From assembly GCF_000021805.1 (NCBI RefSeq), contig NC_011726.1, forward strand, positions 248,001 to 312,000: a stretch of 64,000 nt of DNA, given 5' to 3'. The translations under genes were made by a program, and so were the position numbers. Shown in pieces: positions 44,842-53,168 of this stretch. Position 1 is the stretch's first letter; each line of letters starts with the position of its first letter. The DNA comes from Rippkaea orientalis PCC 8801. Lineage in GTDB: Bacteria > Cyanobacteriota > Cyanobacteriia > Cyanobacteriales > Microcystaceae. The notes under the pieces were generated by a model. It ran no database searches and was not told the origin of the DNA. It worked only from the letters and a program-made list of their open reading frames with translations.

Positions 44842-45615
44842 ATGACCAACATTGTCTCTATTCATTCCTACCGTGGTGGAACGGGAAAATCGAATACAAC
44901 CGCCAACATTGCTACAACCATGGCTATGTTAGGCAAGCGAGTGGCGATGGTCGATACAGACATCCAATCTCCGGGTATTCATGTCCTATTTGAGCTCGAT
45001 GAAAGCAAAATCAAGAAAACTCTCAATGACTATTTGTGGCATGAAGGTTGTAAAGCACAAGAGATTTCCTATGATGTCAGCTATATCCTTGAGGATGTTC
45101 CCGACGAGATGAAAACTCCAGGGGGTGAAATTTTCCTGATTCCCTCAAGTATGAAAAGTGAAGACATCGCCACCATTCTCAGTGAAGGTTACGATGTAGA
45201 ACGACTACAAGAAGGATTCTATGAAATTAGCGAATCCCTAGAACTGGATTATCTCTTTGTAGACACCCACCCAGGGATGAACGAAGAAACCCTACTTTCT
45301 ATTGGACTCTCAGAAACCCTAGTGATCATCCTGCGACCTGACCAACAGGATTATCTCGGAACCGCCGTTATGGTAGAAGTGGCCAAAGAATTGGAAGTCC
45401 CTCAGATGTTGCTAGTGATCAACAAAGCCTTACCCGACTTTGATTTTGGGGTTCTCAAAGATAAGGTAACAGAAACCTATAATATTCCCGTAGCGGGTGT
45501 TATGCCCCTCTCAACCGATATGCTACGCCTAGGAAGTCAAGGATTGTTTTGCTTAAAATTCCCCGATCATACCCTAAGTAAAGAATTCCGCAACATCGTT
45601 AGCCACATCAACTAA
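44842..45615 (+). CDS. MinD/ParA-like ATPase
   Basis: This 257-residue deviant Walker A ATPase has SIHSYRGGTGKSNTTANIAT, where the signature Lys of KGGxGKS is Arg. Walker A' is VAMVDTDIQSPGIHVLF; LDYLFVDTHPGMNEETLL is the Walker B region, and MLLVINKALPDFDF follows. LIPSSMKSEDIATILSEGYD is unusual for MinD. Family members act as dimeric switches on membrane or DNA. There is no C-terminal MinD amphipathic helix and no ParB partner nearby. It is the first gene of a three-gene operon (18-bp gap, then 41-bp gap), so it probably drives or positions the membrane Fe-S protein. Confidence 0.85.
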   Translation: MTNIVSIHSYRGGTGKSNTTANIATTMAMLGKRVAMVDTDIQSPGIHVLFELDESKIKKTLNDYLWHEGCKAQEISYDVSYILEDVPDEMKTPGGEIFLIPSSMKSEDIATILSEGYDVERLQEGFYEISESLELDYLFVDTHPGMNEETLLSIGLSETLVIILRPDQQDYLGTAVMVEVAKELEVPQMLLVINKALPDFDFGVLKDKVTETYNIPVAGVMPLSTDMLRLGSQGLFCLKFPDHTLSKEFRNIVSHIN

Positions 45616-45633
45616 AGCTAAGAGGAACAGTCC

Positions 45634-45981
45634 ATGACAAAATTTTACGAAAATCAGGAATCTGAGTCCTCTGGATTAAGCTTTAGCGATCTTCAACAAC
45701 TAGGCGAAGAGGAAAAGAGTTTAATCAATTGGCTAAGACGGTCGGGGAAAAAGAGTTTACCCGAAATTGCCGAAAAACTGTCCAAAGATGAAAACTCTGC
45801 CCTAGCCTTGATTACCCCCTTAGTTGACCAAGGCTTTATTAAAGAAGTCCCTGGAAATCCCGATGGCTATCAAGTCAAGCAACCCCAAAGACGCAAACAA
45901 ACAGCGATTGGGTTAATTGGCAAGAAAAAGTCAAAACCGCCCGAAGACTCTGCAACAGACGATGCAGCAGAAGACCAATAA
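45634..45981 (+). CDS. Small winged-helix protein
   Basis: This 115-residue protein has a winged-helix-like middle: QQLGEEEKSLINWLRRSGKK, then SLPEIAEKLSKDENSALALI and LVDQGFIKEVPGNPDGYQVK, with helix, turn, helix and a wing. The tail (RRKQTAIGLIGKKKSKPP) is basic and then acidic (DDAAEDQ). It resembles small MarR/ArsR-like DNA-binding modules. It sits between the ParA-like ATPase and the large membrane protein in one operon, and could be a transcription factor of the operon or an adaptor linking the two. Confidence 0.68.
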   Translation: MTKFYENQESESSGLSFSDLQQLGEEEKSLINWLRRSGKKSLPEIAEKLSKDENSALALITPLVDQGFIKEVPGNPDGYQVKQPQRRKQTAIGLIGKKKSKPPEDSATDDAAEDQ

Positions 45982-46022
45982 TTGATGATTTCTCATTTAT
46001 GAGCTCATAGGTTCTAACTCCC

Positions 46023-48887
46023 ATGTTGGCTAAAATTCCCGAAAAGCAGATGCACATCGTCCGGTCTATCCTAGCCGGGGGTTGGCTGCTCCTAATCTGT
46101 TCCCTATTCTACGATCCCATTTCCCCTTGGTTAACCTACCCCGATAGCACTTGGAGTCCTTTTCGGTTAAACCCCAACGCTTGTATCCAAGTCCAAGGCC
46201 AATGTCTTCCCCAAGAACCCTATCCCATGGGGGCTTCCCTCTTTTGGGGGTTAATTGTTCCTACAGGGGTCTTTGTCCTGTTAGTCTTTGGCCATGAATT
46301 TTGGCGGCGCATCTGTCCCTTGAGTTTTTTCTCCCAACTCGCCCGCCGCTTGGGGAAACAACGACAACGTAAACGGGTCAATGCCGAAACAGGTCAGGTT
46401 CGCTATGAGTTAGTCAAAATCAAACATGATTCCTGGTTAGGCCAGAACTACATTAAAGTCCAAATGGGCTTATTGTACGTTGGAGTCTGTGGCCGTATCC
46501 TTTTCTACGACTCGATGCGACCGGTTTTAGGAAGTTTTTTGCTGTTTAGCATTGGTGCAGCTATTCTAGTGGGCTACCTCTACGGGGGAAAATCTTGGTG
46601 TCAGTATTTCTGTCCTATGGCTCCGGTGCAGGAATTTTATAGCGAACCGAGAGGGTTACTCAACAGTATCGCCCATGAAGGTCAAAGTGGTGTCATTACT
46701 CAATCGATGTGCCGTCAAATCAACGAAGATGGCACAGAATCGAGTGCTTGCGTGGCCTGCCATAGTCCCTGTGTCGATATTGATGCCGAAAGAGCCTATT
46801 GGGATCGCATGAAACGCCCCGATTATAAATTGCTCTACTATAGCTATGCGGGGTTAGTGGTGGGCTTTTTCTCCTACTATTACCTCTATTCGGGCAATTG
46901 GAATTACCTCCTATCAGGAGCCTGGACTCGTCACGAAAATCAATTAAATCTCCTGTTTACCCCAGGATTTTATTTTTTTGGAACTCCTATCCCTATTCCT
47001 CGGTTAGTGGCTGCTCCCCTAACCATTGCCGTCTCTATGGCGGTTGCTTATTATATCGGACGCTATCTCGAAAAATTCTACATCACCTATCAACGGCGAC
47101 GGAGTCCGAATATAGCCCCCCTACAGCTACAACACGAAATTTTCACCCTGACGACCTTTTGGGTGTTCAATTTCTTCTTTATCTTCGCTGGACGCTCCTA
47201 TATTTCTAAGTTACCCATCCAGCTACAATACCTCTTCAATATAACCGTGGTGGTGGTCAGTACCCTCTGGTTATATCGGACTTGGGGACGAACTAATGAT
47301 CGCTATTCCCGTGAAAGTTTGGCAGGTCGTTTACGTCAACAATTAACCCGTCTACAGGTGGATGTCTCCCGTTTCTTGGAAGGCCGTTCCCTGGAATCCT
47401 TAAACTCGGATGAGGTGTATGTTTTAGCCAAGATTCTCCCCGGATTTACAGGAGATAAGCGTCTAGAAGCCTATAAAGGGATTTTACGCGATTCCTTGGA
47501 AGAAGGCTACGTCAACAGTTCCAGTAGCTTAGAAGTGTTGCGTCAGATGCGCGAAGAATTGGGGGTCAGTGAACAGGAACACTTGACCATTTTGACCGAA
47601 TTAGGCGTAGAAGACCCGGATTTATTCGATCCGAACCAACAACGGAGCCGAGAAAATCAACTACGGATGCAAAGCTTACGCTCTCGCATTCGAGGAATGG
47701 TCGGGGGTGGAAAACGCCGACGGGGAGCCCAAGGGTTAGCCAAAGACCTGTTTAAAGTGGTTAAGAAGGAGAAATCCATCGGGGATGTTATTGAAAAAGA
47801 AGGAACGGTGCGATCGCTGTCCCAACAATACGGGTTAACCCTCGAAGAAGAAGCCCAAATTCTGGCGGATTTAGACGAAGACTCTCAAATCCTCCGTCGG
47901 GGTAATATTCTCCTTGAACAACTCAACAACCTACGGGAACAAGAATTAGCTCTCCTAAACCCCCCGTCGAGTTTGCACTCTCCCCACCTACGGACGGGAT
48001 TACAAATTTTACGGTCTACTGTCGCTCAAAAGCAGCGCGTCATTGCTAAAGGGGTACTCAGTATTCTTGAAGAATTGGAGACGGGAACCGAAGCAACTCG
48101 CTTTGCCTTAGCTTTGGCTAGTTTAACCCACCATGTTTTACCTGAATTATTGGAAAATGGTGATCCGTTGTGGGAAGATCGCCTTGATGGGACGATTTTC
48201 TCCCGCATGGAAGAACAACTCAAGCAAACCGATGATCAATCGACTCAGGTTGAGGATACGGTGATGGTAGGCTATTTGGAGGCGTTATTTACCGAACCCG
48301 ATTCGTTAACTAAAGCAGTTAGTCTGTATCTCTTAGCCAAAGTCAACCAGGAACGGGCACAACAACAAGCGCGTCAATTATTAGAGAGTCAGTTGATGTT
48401 AAATACCCTCTTAAAAGAAACCGCACAACAGATTCTGCAAACGTCTGAGGAGAAAGAGTCTATTACCCCCCTCGAAAAACTCTTGTATCTGTCGAGTTAC
48501 GAGTTATTAATGGGGTTAAAAGCGGAAAGCTTGATGAATTTAGCCTATCAAGTTTCCTTGAAGGAATACGAGCGATCGCAGGTTATCTTAGAACAAGGAG
48601 AAATCTCTAAAGACCTCTTTTTGTTACTACGCGGCAAGTTAGAAGCGAAGCATCGCTTAGAAGATGGGGAGGTCGAGACAGAGGAAGTCGTCCCGGTGGT
48701 TCCTTTAAATGAGTTAGAAGTCTTAGGAAGAATGGAAACCGACTCTACCTATACTGTAACCTCTGCTAAAGCGTCTCTGTTGGCGATCGAAGTAGCCATG
48801 TTTGACTCGCTTCTATCTCAAGATACTGCTTTCTCTCGTCAAGTGATCGAGCAAGAAAGCCGTCGCTTACAACAGTTAAGCAGCTAA
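46023..48887 (+). CDS. Membrane NapH-like Fe-S protein fused to a cyclic-nucleotide-binding domain
   Basis: This 954-residue protein has a membrane N-terminal half with about seven or eight helices. Cys motifs in it are RRICPLSFF (C98), SWCQYFCPMAP (C193, C197) and MCRQINEDGTESSACVACHS (C230, C243, C246, with C250 next), which resemble the 4Fe-4S sites of NapH/CcoG-type polyferredoxins but are not identical to them. The middle (about 430-830) is soluble and helical, possibly with repeats. Residues about 850-940 form a cyclic-nucleotide-binding domain: QVILEQGEISKDLFLLLRGK, then VLGRMETDSTYTVTSAKASL. This domain set suggests a redox-active membrane protein controlled by a nucleotide or other ligand. 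A strong terminator follows. Confidence 0.82.
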   Translation: MLAKIPEKQMHIVRSILAGGWLLLICSLFYDPISPWLTYPDSTWSPFRLNPNACIQVQGQCLPQEPYPMGASLFWGLIVPTGVFVLLVFGHEFWRRICPLSFFSQLARRLGKQRQRKRVNAETGQVRYELVKIKHDSWLGQNYIKVQMGLLYVGVCGRILFYDSMRPVLGSFLLFSIGAAILVGYLYGGKSWCQYFCPMAPVQEFYSEPRGLLNSIAHEGQSGVITQSMCRQINEDGTESSACVACHSPCVDIDAERAYWDRMKRPDYKLLYYSYAGLVVGFFSYYYLYSGNWNYLLSGAWTRHENQLNLLFTPGFYFFGTPIPIPRLVAAPLTIAVSMAVAYYIGRYLEKFYITYQRRRSPNIAPLQLQHEIFTLTTFWVFNFFFIFAGRSYISKLPIQLQYLFNITVVVVSTLWLYRTWGRTNDRYSRESLAGRLRQQLTRLQVDVSRFLEGRSLESLNSDEVYVLAKILPGFTGDKRLEAYKGILRDSLEEGYVNSSSSLEVLRQMREELGVSEQEHLTILTELGVEDPDLFDPNQQRSRENQLRMQSLRSRIRGMVGGGKRRRGAQGLAKDLFKVVKKEKSIGDVIEKEGTVRSLSQQYGLTLEEEAQILADLDEDSQILRRGNILLEQLNNLREQELALLNPPSSLHSPHLRTGLQILRSTVAQKQRVIAKGVLSILEELETGTEATRFALALASLTHHVLPELLENGDPLWEDRLDGTIFSRMEEQLKQTDDQSTQVEDTVMVGYLEALFTEPDSLTKAVSLYLLAKVNQERAQQQARQLLESQLMLNTLLKETAQQILQTSEEKESITPLEKLLYLSSYELLMGLKAESLMNLAYQVSLKEYERSQVILEQGEISKDLFLLLRGKLEAKHRLEDGEVETEEVVPVVPLNELEVLGRMETDSTYTVTSAKASLLAIEVAMFDSLLSQDTAFSRQVIEQESRRLQQLSS

Positions 48888-48911
48888 AGACCAATCAGTT
48901 AGCCTAAAATT

Positions 48912-48940
48912 AACGCGGGTAATAAAATACCCGCGTTTTT
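48912..48940 (+). terminator. Rho-independent terminator of the ParA-like operon
   Basis: AACGCGGGTA (48912-48921) and TACCCGCGTT (48928-48937) form a perfect 10-bp stem with a six-base loop, followed by TTT. It is 25 bp after the stop of the membrane protein gene. Confidence 0.88.
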
Positions 48941-49360
48941 CATGACTTTGTGTTATTGTTAATTCGTTGTGGGGTCAATCTCAAATCTACAATCAGTAAT
49001 CAGCAATTGCCTGACCCCCCACGCTAATTTTGAAGAAGATAATCGGCGAGAAAAGTGCCAACTAAGATTAAAGAAAGGGATATTAGCTCCATGGGGGTTT
49101 CTCCTGCTGAAATTACATAATCGGAACAAAAGACTTTAGTTGTGCCATTGCGTGTTATTCACTAGGCTTTCATTACTACCTAGTTTAAGGCGATACTCCT
49201 CCTAAGTACTTCCCCCAGGTAGCTCATCCATTTGGGTTAAATCCATTAAGTAAATATAATGAAATATGGGAGTCAGGAGTCAGGAGACAGAAGTTCAAAT
49301 ATATTCTGCCTTTTCCCACCTTCCCCACATCTTCCCCCATTCCTCAATCAATAATCTTTT
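48941..49360. other. Gene-free stretch with a heptanucleotide repeat
   Basis: There is no gene. GGAGTCA-GGAGTCA-GGAGACA lies at 49269-49289, a 7-bp tandem repeat like the one in tpsA. C-rich sequence follows at 49310-49340 before the TPR gene. Nothing else stands out. Confidence 0.5.
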
Positions 49361-51172
49361 ATGTCTGACTCAACTACTTTATCTGATCGCTATTTTGCTT
49401 TAATTGATTCGATTGTTGAAACAACCCTAAAAGGGAATATTCGTTCTAAAGAACAAGTTTATCAATTATTAGTTAACGGGATTACTAAAGGGACGGGGGA
49501 GGTATTTGAACGTGCTTTATTTGAACGCATAGAAAGCACAAAAAGTCAATTAGAAACGAAAGTTAAAGCCACTCGTATTTTAAGAGCGTTACAAACCATT
49601 GAAGCAGAGTGGAAACGATGGGAAAAAGAGAATCAAACTGATCAAGCGATCGCGCGTTCTATTGAGCAAATTTTGGGGAGTAATCCTAATGAGTATCTAT
49701 TGACTTTTTTTAAGTTAATTGATCCCAATAATTCACCGAATTTAACCAGAGATCAACTCAAAAAATTAGGACAAGCTTTATTAACACAAACTTCCTCTGA
49801 AACCTTGCCAGAATTAGGACAAGGAATTATCGATGGATTAAACACTTTCGCTCAGTTAGAACCTGATTTAATCACCTGGATTTATGAACAAAATCAAAGT
49901 CTTTTAGGGTTTGGATCTCAAAAAAATAGTCCTTGGAGTTGGTGGGAAAAAAAGATTAGTAGTCCCTTAGCTAAACAACTCTTTGAAACCCTCAATCAAC
50001 AGACTTCTATTCTACAATTTACTGAGGTTACTTATCAGGTAGAATTGAGAGCTTGGGTTGAATTAATGCTCTTACTTGATTATCTGCAACAAGGCTTAGT
50101 TAATTGGTTTGATCAACAGCCTTATAATGCCCAATTTGGCAAAAAATTATCCTATAGCACCTTTTTAAGTTTTGCCGTTATTTGGGGACAATTATCCGAA
50201 GGATTTTATCGTCATCAAAAACAGTTACAAGAAGGCTGTTTTTTACTCATGCTACAGACTTTACGGAAATTTGCTAGACGGGAAGACTTTCCCCTTTATG
50301 GAGGTATTTTTGCTTCATTTTCTGGAGATTATTTGCAAGAAACCCTTAATTATTTTGATGATCCATTAAAACAGGTTGAAAGAACCCAAGAAAAGGCTAA
50401 AATTCTTACACTATTGGGCTATTCTCAGGGTACTTTAGGACAGTATAATAAAGCTAAATCCTTTCATGAAGAAGCATTATCCATTGCTCGTGAAGCGTCT
50501 GATGCTATTACAGAAATTGCCAATCTCAATCATTTAAGTCGTCTTGAAGTATACCAAAAAAACTACAATGAAGCCATTAATTATAGTCAACGTGCCTTAA
50601 TTTTAGCTCGTCAAGTGGGTAACAGATTAGGAGAAGCTAATGGATTAGTCAATTTAGGTTATAGTGAAGTCTTTAAAGCGCGTGAATTGGAAACAATGGA
50701 AACAACGATTTATGAGCAAGCGATTAGTTATTTAGAACAGGGATTACAAATAGCTCAACGCTTAGAAGACTCCCAAAGTCAAGCATTAGCTTATAATAGT
50801 TTAGGTATTGCTTATGTTGTTTTAGCTAAACCCACTGCTGCTATTACAGTACTAGAAAAAGGGACAAATATCGCCTTGCTTTCAGGGGATATTTATCTAC
50901 AAGGATTGAATTTTACCTATCTAGCAGAAGCTTATTATAGTTTAGGCAATCAGGAAAAAACTATCGTTTATGGTGCTATAGGAATGTCACTTTTAGCGCG
51001 AATTAATTCTCAAGAATGGCGACAAGCCGCAGGATTAATAACAATTGTTAAAGGAAAAATGCAACATAATCAATTTCAGAATTTATTAGAAAACAATCGA
51101 TCTAATATTATTAAAATTATTGGCATTGATGGCTATAATAGTTTAGCAGAATTACTAGAAAAATATCAATAA
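49361..51172 (+). CDS. Tetratricopeptide repeat protein
   Basis: This 603-residue soluble protein has an N-terminal helical region (YFALIDSIVETTLKGNIRSK ... QLLVNGITKGTGEVFERAL). The C-terminal 270 residues carry TPR units: ILTLLGYSQGTLGQYNKAKS, LNHLSRLEVYQKNYNEAINY, NGLVNLGYSEVFKARELET, and LAYNSLGIAYVVLAKPTAAI. TPR units bind peptides or other proteins. No kinase, peptidase or nucleotide motif is seen, and there is no signal peptide. I do not recognise the N-terminal family. A terminator follows directly. Confidence 0.8.
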   Translation: MSDSTTLSDRYFALIDSIVETTLKGNIRSKEQVYQLLVNGITKGTGEVFERALFERIESTKSQLETKVKATRILRALQTIEAEWKRWEKENQTDQAIARSIEQILGSNPNEYLLTFFKLIDPNNSPNLTRDQLKKLGQALLTQTSSETLPELGQGIIDGLNTFAQLEPDLITWIYEQNQSLLGFGSQKNSPWSWWEKKISSPLAKQLFETLNQQTSILQFTEVTYQVELRAWVELMLLLDYLQQGLVNWFDQQPYNAQFGKKLSYSTFLSFAVIWGQLSEGFYRHQKQLQEGCFLLMLQTLRKFARREDFPLYGGIFASFSGDYLQETLNYFDDPLKQVERTQEKAKILTLLGYSQGTLGQYNKAKSFHEEALSIAREASDAITEIANLNHLSRLEVYQKNYNEAINYSQRALILARQVGNRLGEANGLVNLGYSEVFKARELETMETTIYEQAISYLEQGLQIAQRLEDSQSQALAYNSLGIAYVVLAKPTAAITVLEKGTNIALLSGDIYLQGLNFTYLAEAYYSLGNQEKTIVYGAIGMSLLARINSQEWRQAAGLITIVKGKMQHNQFQNLLENNRSNIIKIIGIDGYNSLAELLEKYQ

Positions 51173-51267: not shown

Positions 51268-51816
51268 TTAATTCAAGAATATTTGATATTTTTTAATAAA
51301 ATAGTTGAGAGATTTATTAGTTTGATTTTCCATTGCATGGGATAGATTATATAGCTTTAGTATTTCTTCCATAAAATCAATTCTAGAATTTTTAAATTTG
51401 GTAGGGATACTATCATTAAATTGTTCTTTTGTTAAGCTATCTGTGTTTTTAAACTGAGTTGGTTTGTCTATTTTTAATCCTTCTAAAGTGTCTTGAGTTA
51501 GTCCTCCATAATACCAACTTTCAATTTCTTTACAGACAACGACTATTCTATTCTTATCAATATTTTTGATATTTTTTGTGATCCTGTCTTTTTTTTCGGT
51601 GATACAACTACATAAGTCAATATCCGCTAAATAAATATAGTCTGCTTTCATTTGAATAATGCTTTTAAGAAAGTTTTCGATATATTCATTTTTCTTCTTA
51701 GCATATTCAATAATATTGACGAGATTATCTTGTTTTTCTAAACAAGGTTTAATAATATTCTCAACAAATATTGTATCGTCAGAACCTTCTACCCAAATAA
51801 ATAATTGTTTATTCAT
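51268..51816 (-). CDS. TOPRIM-like (DUF4435-type) small protein, partner of the ATPase upstream
   Basis: This 182-residue protein has an N-terminal acidic motif LFIWVEGSDDTIFVENII (E10, D13, D14), a central DYIYLADIDLCSC with DxD (D65, D67), and VVVCKEIESWYYGG. That order (Glu early, D-x-D, then E) is the TOPRIM pattern of OLD-type nucleases, and resembles the DUF4435-like subunits of ATPase/TOPRIM defence pairs such as PARIS AriB. The gene starts 5 bp after the ATPase stop, so the two form an operon. The catalytic reading is inference, and no homolog search was run. It is AT-rich. Confidence 0.65.
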   Translation of the reverse strand: MNKQLFIWVEGSDDTIFVENIIKPCLEKQDNLVNIIEYAKKKNEYIENFLKSIIQMKADYIYLADIDLCSCITEKKDRITKNIKNIDKNRIVVVCKEIESWYYGGLTQDTLEGLKIDKPTQFKNTDSLTKEQFNDSIPTKFKNSRIDFMEEILKLYNLSHAMENQTNKSLNYFIKKYQIFLN

Positions 51817-51821
51817 TTTTC

Positions 51822-53168
51822 TTAATTATTACCCATATCTAATAAATTTTGAACATAAAGTTCTTCTATTTCAATTTCATTCTCTAAAAAGATTTTAATT
51901 GCTTCTTTGTCAGCAGGTCGAGAAATTTGAGAAAATCCGTTTTTATCCCTTGTCATTAAGAGAATATCATCCAAGTCAACATATTTGACAATTTGGGGGT
52001 TATGGGTGGTAATAATAATTTGTTTATTCTGGGATGCTTCTTTCATCATTCTAACAACTTTGGACATTAAATGAGGATGGATGTTTCTTTCAGGTTCTTC
52101 TATGATAGCTACTGATGACTTATCAAAGTATAAAGCAACTACTAGATCAATAATATTAATTGTACCATCAGAAATTAAGGATGAGGGGAGATGTTTGTCA
52201 TTTTTAGCGTATTTCTCCTTAAGACTAAAGATTAATGAGTTCCCTGCAAATTTTTCAATTTCTATTGAATCAATAAACGGTAATAAATAAGTCAGTAAGT
52301 TAGTAAATTTTCTTTTGTTCTCATCATCAGAAAGTATCTTTTTTAAAACAATGGCTAAATTACTCCCATCTTCTTCTAAATCTATTTTACCTGTAATTGG
52401 TGTTGCTTTTTTAGGGATTTTTGGATCAAAGTCAAAAATTCCAATTTTATCGAATTTATCTTCATGAATACTACGAAATAATAGCCAAAATAAAGGAGTT
52501 TGAACAAGTAATCCTTCTTGTTCGTACGATCCTTCTAATTGAAAATAATCTGTACTTATGTTTCCCTGTGCTTCAAATCTTCCTAACGTATTTAAAATCA
52601 AACTGCTTTTAGATCTTAAAATCAAATCATATAATATTTCTGATCCAGAGATAAGCAACTTATTTATAGCATGATTTATTGTTAATTCAATTGTCTTTTG
52701 ACTAAAATTTTTATCATTAATTTTAGAACTATTTGATCTCTCATTTAAAGCAACTTCATGAGTTAGTTGATCTTTCTTTATTCGTTTTATACTAATTCCT
52801 TGTCCTGACTCAAACTCAAACCTAAATTGATATTGTGATTTATTTATTTCAACATTTATAAGATCCAGAGAATTTTCTTGTTTAGAAACATCTACGAGAT
52901 ATTGATTGTCATTACTTTTAAACTCAACTTCAAACAAAAAGTCTTGACTTGCACCAAGATTATTATTAATCAAAAATTCGACATCACCTTGTAACGAGAT
53001 AGCATTTTCTAAACCATGTAATTGAATATCCCGAAGAAAGCGAAAGATTTGCAAAAAATTAGATTTACCCGAAGCATTAGCACCAATAACCACATTAAAA
53101 TCTTTTAGCTTCACCTCACAATCATCAAAACTCTTAAAATTAGCAACTTTAACTCGTTCAAACTTCAT
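51822..53168 (-). CDS. AAA-type ATPase (AAA_15/AAA_21, RecF/OLD-like)
   Basis: This 448-residue SMC-like ATPase begins RVKVANFKSFDDCEVKLKDF, the typical start for AAA_15/21 proteins. Walker A is VIGANASGKSNFLQIF (residues 29-37 core), Walker B is SVAIIEEPERNIHPHLMSKV, and the His switch is ITTHNPQIVKYV. The region between (90-340) is the lid with low similarity. Such ATPases occur in RecF, OLD, Gabija and PARIS systems, often with a nuclease. Its 5-bp spacing to the TOPRIM-like gene makes them a likely two-subunit complex. There is no transporter domain. Confidence 0.82.
   Translation of the reverse strand: MKFERVKVANFKSFDDCEVKLKDFNVVIGANASGKSNFLQIFRFLRDIQLHGLENAISLQGDVEFLINNNLGASQDFLFEVEFKSNDNQYLVDVSKQENSLDLINVEINKSQYQFRFEFESGQGISIKRIKKDQLTHEVALNERSNSSKINDKNFSQKTIELTINHAINKLLISGSEILYDLILRSKSSLILNTLGRFEAQGNISTDYFQLEGSYEQEGLLVQTPLFWLLFRSIHEDKFDKIGIFDFDPKIPKKATPITGKIDLEEDGSNLAIVLKKILSDDENKRKFTNLLTYLLPFIDSIEIEKFAGNSLIFSLKEKYAKNDKHLPSSLISDGTINIIDLVVALYFDKSSVAIIEEPERNIHPHLMSKVVRMMKEASQNKQIIITTHNPQIVKYVDLDDILLMTRDKNGFSQISRPADKEAIKIFLENEIEIEELYVQNLLDMGNN

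Follow-up and report, generated by a model that had tools for sequence, protein, structure and literature searches.

What might a ParA-like ATPase, a small winged-helix-type (wHTH) protein and a large membrane protein do side by side in a cyanobacterium? These three genes—the trio in the following—lie in a window of 64,000 nucleotides from the 4.79 Mb genome of Rippkaea orientalis PCC 8801 (NC_011726.1, positions 248,001 to 312,000), and a first-pass annotation of this stretch had taken them for a possible new system, in which the ATPase and the small protein position or control a membrane redox protein that receives nucleotide input. We find that the 954-aa membrane protein belongs to a family of cyanobacterial iron-sulfur (Fe-S) membrane proteins, seemingly uncharacterised so far, in which one core is joined to differing sensor tails. 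The layout of three tightly spaced genes and a strong terminator was borne out: in the open reading frame list all three lie on the forward strand, with gaps of 18 nt between the ATPase and wHTH genes and of 41 nt between the wHTH and membrane genes, and a stem-loop follows (arms 48912–48921 and 48928–48937; z −4.38 for 48885–48950 against 200 shuffles) that a simple consensus terminator scanner did not list.

The evidence for a family starts from the core. Fer4_5 matches the 954-aa protein with 39.6 bits against a Pfam cut-off of 22, and some other members fall slightly below that cut-off (e.g. 20.6 bits). The cysteines picked out by the first-pass annotation (C98, C193, C197, C230, C243, C246, and C250) are at the positions it gave and invariant in 55/55 aligned relatives; four residues missing from its list, C54, C61, H91, and H371, are equally invariant, and C156 is kept in 51 of the 55. 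Across 22 sequences spanning every tail type, the same nine cysteines and H371 do not vary, and H91 is found in at least 90%. The cysteines are arranged as C98P, C193xxxC197P, C230, and C243xxC246xxxC250. Calling this half "polyferredoxin-like" therefore overstates it—the cysteines are there, but they make up one CxxCxxxC-type motif and two Cys-Pro (CP) motifs, the first of which contains just one Cys. Hydropathy places several helices before about residue 410, and the end of the core (residues 430–545) is charged and helical. In the presumed topology, the positively charged loop after C98 would face the cytoplasm and C54/C61 would sit in an outer loop.

By sequence search, core relatives are present in 76 of 148 related genomes (79 had matches, of which three weak ones, in G051, G067, and G145, are not counted as core) and in 49 genomes of a set of 386 taken from the phylum. 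A species collection held relatives at 193 stretches, and the best 80 of these 193 are all cyanobacterial by title. One relative (G045) has a stop inside the membrane gene. Full-text literature searches found no description of the core family.

The NapH/CcoG/NosR-like (Fer4_5) proteins are defined by two CxxxCP motifs. The core shares with NapH, CcoG (RdxA, FixG), and YccM the membrane helices with cytoplasmic-side CP motifs and the Fer4_5 match above cut-off; of the two defining motifs, the second is present (C193–C197P), whereas the first is only C98P, with W94 replacing Cys. The core differs further in having one CxxCxxxC region instead of two full ferredoxin motifs, and the core family has an extra helical part and sensor tails. 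CcoG and NapH models each touch 8 of 22 core sequences, weakly, and the NCBIfam napH_ model reaches 16.9–18.5 bits against a cut-off of 213.05; CcmB, an unrelated control in this comparison, gave no match. We thus reject membership in NapH/CcoG and retain a motif-level likeness.

Table 1 Features of the three-gene unit, in positions of the window
Feature	Position	Strand	Evidence
ParA/MinD-superfamily ATPase, 257 aa	44842..45615	+	ParA/CbiA/AAA_31 matches
Small winged-helix-type protein (wHTH), 115 aa	45634..45981	+	Weak HTH matches
Membrane Fe-S protein with C-terminal cNMP-like domain, 954 aa	46023..48887	+	Fer4_5 and cNMP_binding matches
Conserved membrane Fe-S core (residues 1–550 of the 954-aa protein)	46023..47672	+	Invariant columns, hydropathy
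cNMP-binding-like domain (residues 847–934), phosphate-binding Arg absent	48561..48824	+	31.5 bits
Intrinsic terminator stem-loop, 10-bp stem, 6-nt loop, then Ts	48912..48937	+	z −4.38

What follows the core varies from one member to the next. A survey of 158 loci yielded 135 with a core. Of these, 127 were distinct, and the 126 that reached 500 aa were used for the tree. Among these 126, 93 end in a domain resembling cyclic-nucleotide-binding (cNMP) domains, 16 in FHA plus cNMP, and 10 in EF-hands (assigned by motif); seven have no recognised tail, some of them being cut by contig ends. Five sequences with EF-hands and one with FHA plus cNMP were scanned with Pfam, which confirmed the tail in all of them. 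The genome of the trio itself holds a second core copy, an EF-hand paralogue. CSE is called the only known calcium sensor in Anabaena in an excerpt of PMC7065334, and the EF-hand tails of the core family add candidate calcium sensors.

The tail of the 954-aa protein resembles CRP-type cNMP-binding domains by its match to PF00027 (cNMP_binding; 31.5 bits against a cut-off of 27.5). In cNMP effector domains, the phosphate-binding cassette is defined by a Glu and an Arg. The 954-aa protein keeps the Glu but has Thr in place of the Arg, and its relatives follow suit: the Arg is found in 0/7 trio-clade sequences, 0/40 other non-FHA sequences, and 4/7 of the FHA type, against 5/7, 40/40, and 7/7 for the Glu. 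The domain assignment of the first-pass annotation thus stands, but its ligand pocket is without the phosphate-binding Arg. Because this residue is missing in all seven trio-clade sequences, the proposed nucleotide input to the 954-aa protein is unsupported, and we reject cyclic-nucleotide input through a canonical pocket.

One group of cores comes with a partner gene. Downstream of 13 of the 16 FHA-plus-cNMP cores, on the same strand, lies a gene for an FHA-FAD-NAD-[2Fe-2S] reductase (FAD, NAD, and Fer2 by Pfam); of the three others, one (L110) has only 50 nt of downstream sequence. The reductase also stands next to one cNMP core (L218) and one core-only sequence (L221). Counted at E ≤ 1e-60 in the 148 genomes, it is present in 27, all of them among the 76 core genomes (hypergeometric p ~1e-9, assuming independent genomes); 12 of the 27 carry it on the same strand as a core and no more than 4 kb away. 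It occurs in 11/12 trio genomes vs 16/64 other core genomes (Fisher p 2e-5, again assuming independence), the only trio genome without it being 87% complete. The genome of the trio encodes it, Pfam-confirmed, away from the trio. There it follows kaiA, kaiB, and kaiC (Pfam; L244:8328-13616); this adjacency is not kept in the other trio genomes examined and is therefore taken as chance, so that we reject a clock link. Elsewhere, a stand-alone protein of 235–237 aa resembling residues 634–844 of the 954-aa protein adjoins the reductase (G131, G147; L253:5255-5968, L254:8186-8893), the one tested having no Pfam match. Eight heterocyst-type loci have a gene for a Cu/Zn superoxide dismutase immediately past the reductase (e.g. 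L126:14308-14889), and eight have a DUF928 gene before the core.

A second set of neighbours belongs to bicarbonate uptake. One clade numbers 82 core sequences, and for 20 of them genes of BCT1 (cmp) or SbtA lie no more than 6 kb away (18 with cmp and three with SbtA, one of these having both). In 12 of the 18 cmp-linked cases, cmpD is followed by the membrane gene, within 300 nt and in the same orientation; in two Synechocystis sequences the cmpD match is a remnant downstream of the membrane gene. Pfam confirms SbtA in 3/3 core-linked loci, and no BCT1 or SbtA genes were found at 22 control loci around the ATPase family elsewhere. A nitrate transporter beside these cores was rejected: the solute-binding protein, typed in two of the 12 sequences having one within 6 kb of the core, is CmpA-like in both (628 vs 441 bits; 699 vs 428). 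The genome of the trio has cmp, nrt, and SbtA genes, all far from the trio. At two cmp-linked loci (L113, L144), CO2-hydration genes—by similarity presumably of the ChpX/ChpY type, with NdhF and NdhD—lie within 8 kb on the opposite side of the membrane gene. The linkage suggests bicarbonate uptake as one physiological setting of the family, in a sister branch and with no automatic transfer to the trio. According to an excerpt of a review (PMC13249358), native BCT1 produced in E. coli has been reported to show no activity, and it is believed that the bicarbonate transporters are switched off in the dark and rapidly regain activity in light; phosphorylation, SbtB, and the CmpC regulatory domain are the controls favoured there. 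The BCT1/SbtA-linked core branch makes the question of dark/light control of these transporters testable.

As for the other two genes of the trio, the ATPase has Pfam matches above the cut-offs (PF10609 with 66.3 bits, PF01656, and PF13614), and MinD structures were also matched. In ParA/MinD ATPases, the deviant Walker A is defined by a signature Lys. The trio ATPase shares the P-loop fold family and a deviant Walker A (SYRGGTGKSN; switch residues D38/D40 and D141), but in its family (SxRGGTGKSN) Arg (R11) replaces the signature Lys in 44/44 sequences, and no partition or division partner is seen with it. The wHTH protein has only sub-threshold winged-helix matches, a Csa3/CasR-type HTH match being also weak. 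In profile searches it adjoins the ATPase in 12/12 trio genomes and at nine loci with no membrane gene nearby; two further matches do not adjoin an ATPase.

Every genome with a membrane protein of 69% identity or more keeps the order of the three genes (12/12); these make up a Crocosphaera/Cyanothece-type clade, to which the exact trio is restricted. Outside it, the core of the 76 genomes mostly occurs without ATPase and wHTH genes alongside, and the ATPase family, far more widespread than the trio, neighbours cNMP, CHASE2, FHA, and glutaminase genes. Conservation of the order, which the first-pass annotation had proposed to check, thus holds among close relatives, and the independent occurrence that it had named as speaking against a system is largely what we see elsewhere (core in 76/148 genomes; pair alone at nine loci). 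In G024, G111, and Symploca, the membrane gene follows the ATPase with no wHTH gene between.

The invariant cysteine set, the reductase partner, and the exchanged sensor tails together point to a core that transfers electrons, with signals controlling the transfer. Our preferred reading, to which we give about an even chance, is that the 954-aa protein is a membrane protein for electron transfer, gated by its sensor, that receives electrons from the reductase in trans and is controlled by the ParA/wHTH pair. Gene order, domain content, conservation, sensor swapping, linkage, and co-occurrence are its observed part; how it might work we infer from the sequences. The cytoplasmic-side cysteine motifs of the core would probably hold one or two [4Fe-4S] clusters, and the core would accept cytosolic electrons and pass them into or across the membrane, with a quinone, the invariant C54/C61 pair, or an outside oxidant as candidate acceptors. 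Since the branches bear different tails—cNMP-like, FHA plus cNMP, or EF-hand—this flow would be gated by different signals. In the trio branch, the cytosolic donor would likely be the separate reductase encoded elsewhere in the genome, and gating would come from the putatively co-transcribed ATPase and wHTH protein; they would act through the region made up of the helices and the degenerate cNMP domain, probably binding and releasing in an ATP-dependent way. The leading idea for a physiological use would be to couple the reductant or light state to nutrient uptake, the nutrient in the sister branch being presumably bicarbonate. Of the first-pass proposal, the regulated membrane redox protein fits the wider core family, and the nucleotide input, for want of the pocket Arg in 7/7 trio-clade sequences, drops out.

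In such a way of working, the core family is comparable to the EF-hand-controlled NADPH oxidases (NOX5, DUOX), which likewise join a membrane redox core, an FAD/NAD reductase, and a calcium-type sensor, the last in one branch of the core family. However, the core family is Fe-S based, its reductase is a separate protein, and the two are not homologous as far as tested; Pfam scans of the 954-aa protein and four relatives contained no ferric-reductase haem domain.

Several observations weigh against the preferred reading. The likeness of the core to NapH/CcoG is weak and confined to the CP motifs. The reductase lies away from the trio in all trio genomes looked at, and the p-values for its linkage and co-occurrence treat kindred genomes as independent. 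It is absent from 7/7 EF-hand-only genomes and from five genomes with BCT1-linked cores, and is therefore not a universal donor. In Crocosphaera watsonii WH 8501 (L078, G023), the membrane gene is open while the reductase has an in-frame stop and the trio ATPase is truncated, residues 150–256 standing beside the wHTH gene and the front part elsewhere on the contig. The trees add a further point. A careful tree of 48 sequences (the 954-aa protein and others chosen by label, with six divergent sequences and near-copies left out) contains a branch (99/95) that parts the trio and FHA/reductase clades from the EF-hand and BCT1 clades, and a quick tree of all 126 gives the same split with support of 95; because both are unrooted (midpoint roots), they do not establish sister relations, and the trio branch may have another sister than the reductase-linked one.

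The core might instead be a redox sensor and not a conduit, its Fe-S clusters reading the plastoquinone or cytosolic redox state and its tail signalling to partners—the ATPase/wHTH pair here, BCT1/SbtA in the sister branch. The tails are indeed of signalling type, BCT1/SbtA linkage reaches 20 of 82 core sequences, and members of the ATPase family also stand beside genes for CHASE2, cNMP, FHA, and glutaminase proteins. A dedicated FAD/NAD/[2Fe-2S] reductase that follows one branch suits catalysis, yet such a reductase could also reset a sensor; on balance, we regard the sensor as rather unlikely. Alternatively, the trio may be an operon merely inherited within one clade, in which the membrane protein has no functional tie to the ATPase/wHTH pair. 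In favour of this, each part is found without the others in many genomes and the ATPase is truncated in WH 8501, but the 12/12 conservation of the order speaks against it, as does the recurrence of ATPase–core adjacency: ATPase-linked cores occupy two places in the tree, the trio clade with G024 and, near the EF-hand clade, the two tail-less sequences of G111 and Symploca (L139). We therefore hold shared descent without shared function to be unlikely. The positioning or clustering of the membrane protein by a ParA/MinD-type ATPase with cyclic-nucleotide input, as first proposed, agrees with the ParA-superfamily match and the conserved gene order of one clade, but is made very unlikely by the missing pocket Arg, the Arg for signature Lys in all 44 ATPases, the mostly signalling-like contexts of that family elsewhere, and the truncated ATPase of WH 8501. 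Chance assembly of the trio is rejected, because the order is kept in 12/12 close relatives.

If the preferred reading, a sensor-gated electron-transfer protein, is true, cyanobacteria gain a regulated membrane electron-transfer family. A bolder extension, which we consider doubtful, would make its members sensor-gated transmembrane electron valves: one Fe-S core under exchangeable calcium, phospho-threonine, cNMP-like, or ParA-type control, with a dedicated NAD(P)H reductase as part of its electron supply. One branch would then sit in the bicarbonate-pump operon and act as the missing light/redox switch for BCT1 and SbtA.

Reduced genomes bear on what the core may be linked to. Two genomes of 1.4–1.5 Mb with nifH and photosystem I (PSI), and with no match for the photosystem II reaction centre, keep the core (of EF-hand type in the one fetched), whereas no core is present in four of 2.5–3.1 Mb that have nifH and whose PSI genes are missing or broken; by size and content, these six resemble UCYN-A and diatom spheroid bodies. 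The pattern in these six related genomes fits a link to photosynthetic electron flow, a link limited by the small sample and by the many PSI-bearing genomes that also are without the core. Nitrogen fixation as the common factor was rejected, because four nifH genomes are without the core and several core genomes without nifH.

Downstream of the trio, a gene for a 603-aa TPR protein (49361–51172, forward strand) has a counterpart 80% identical at the same place in L070 and one 67% identical in L158, where it lies some 5 kb upstream of the trio; a search of eight other loci gave none near the trio. Beyond it, on the reverse strand (51268–53168), an AAA_21 ATPase of 448 aa and a 182-aa partner match both parts of the PADLOC candidate defence system HEC-01, with best scores of 166.7 bits for the A part and 30 bits for the B part.

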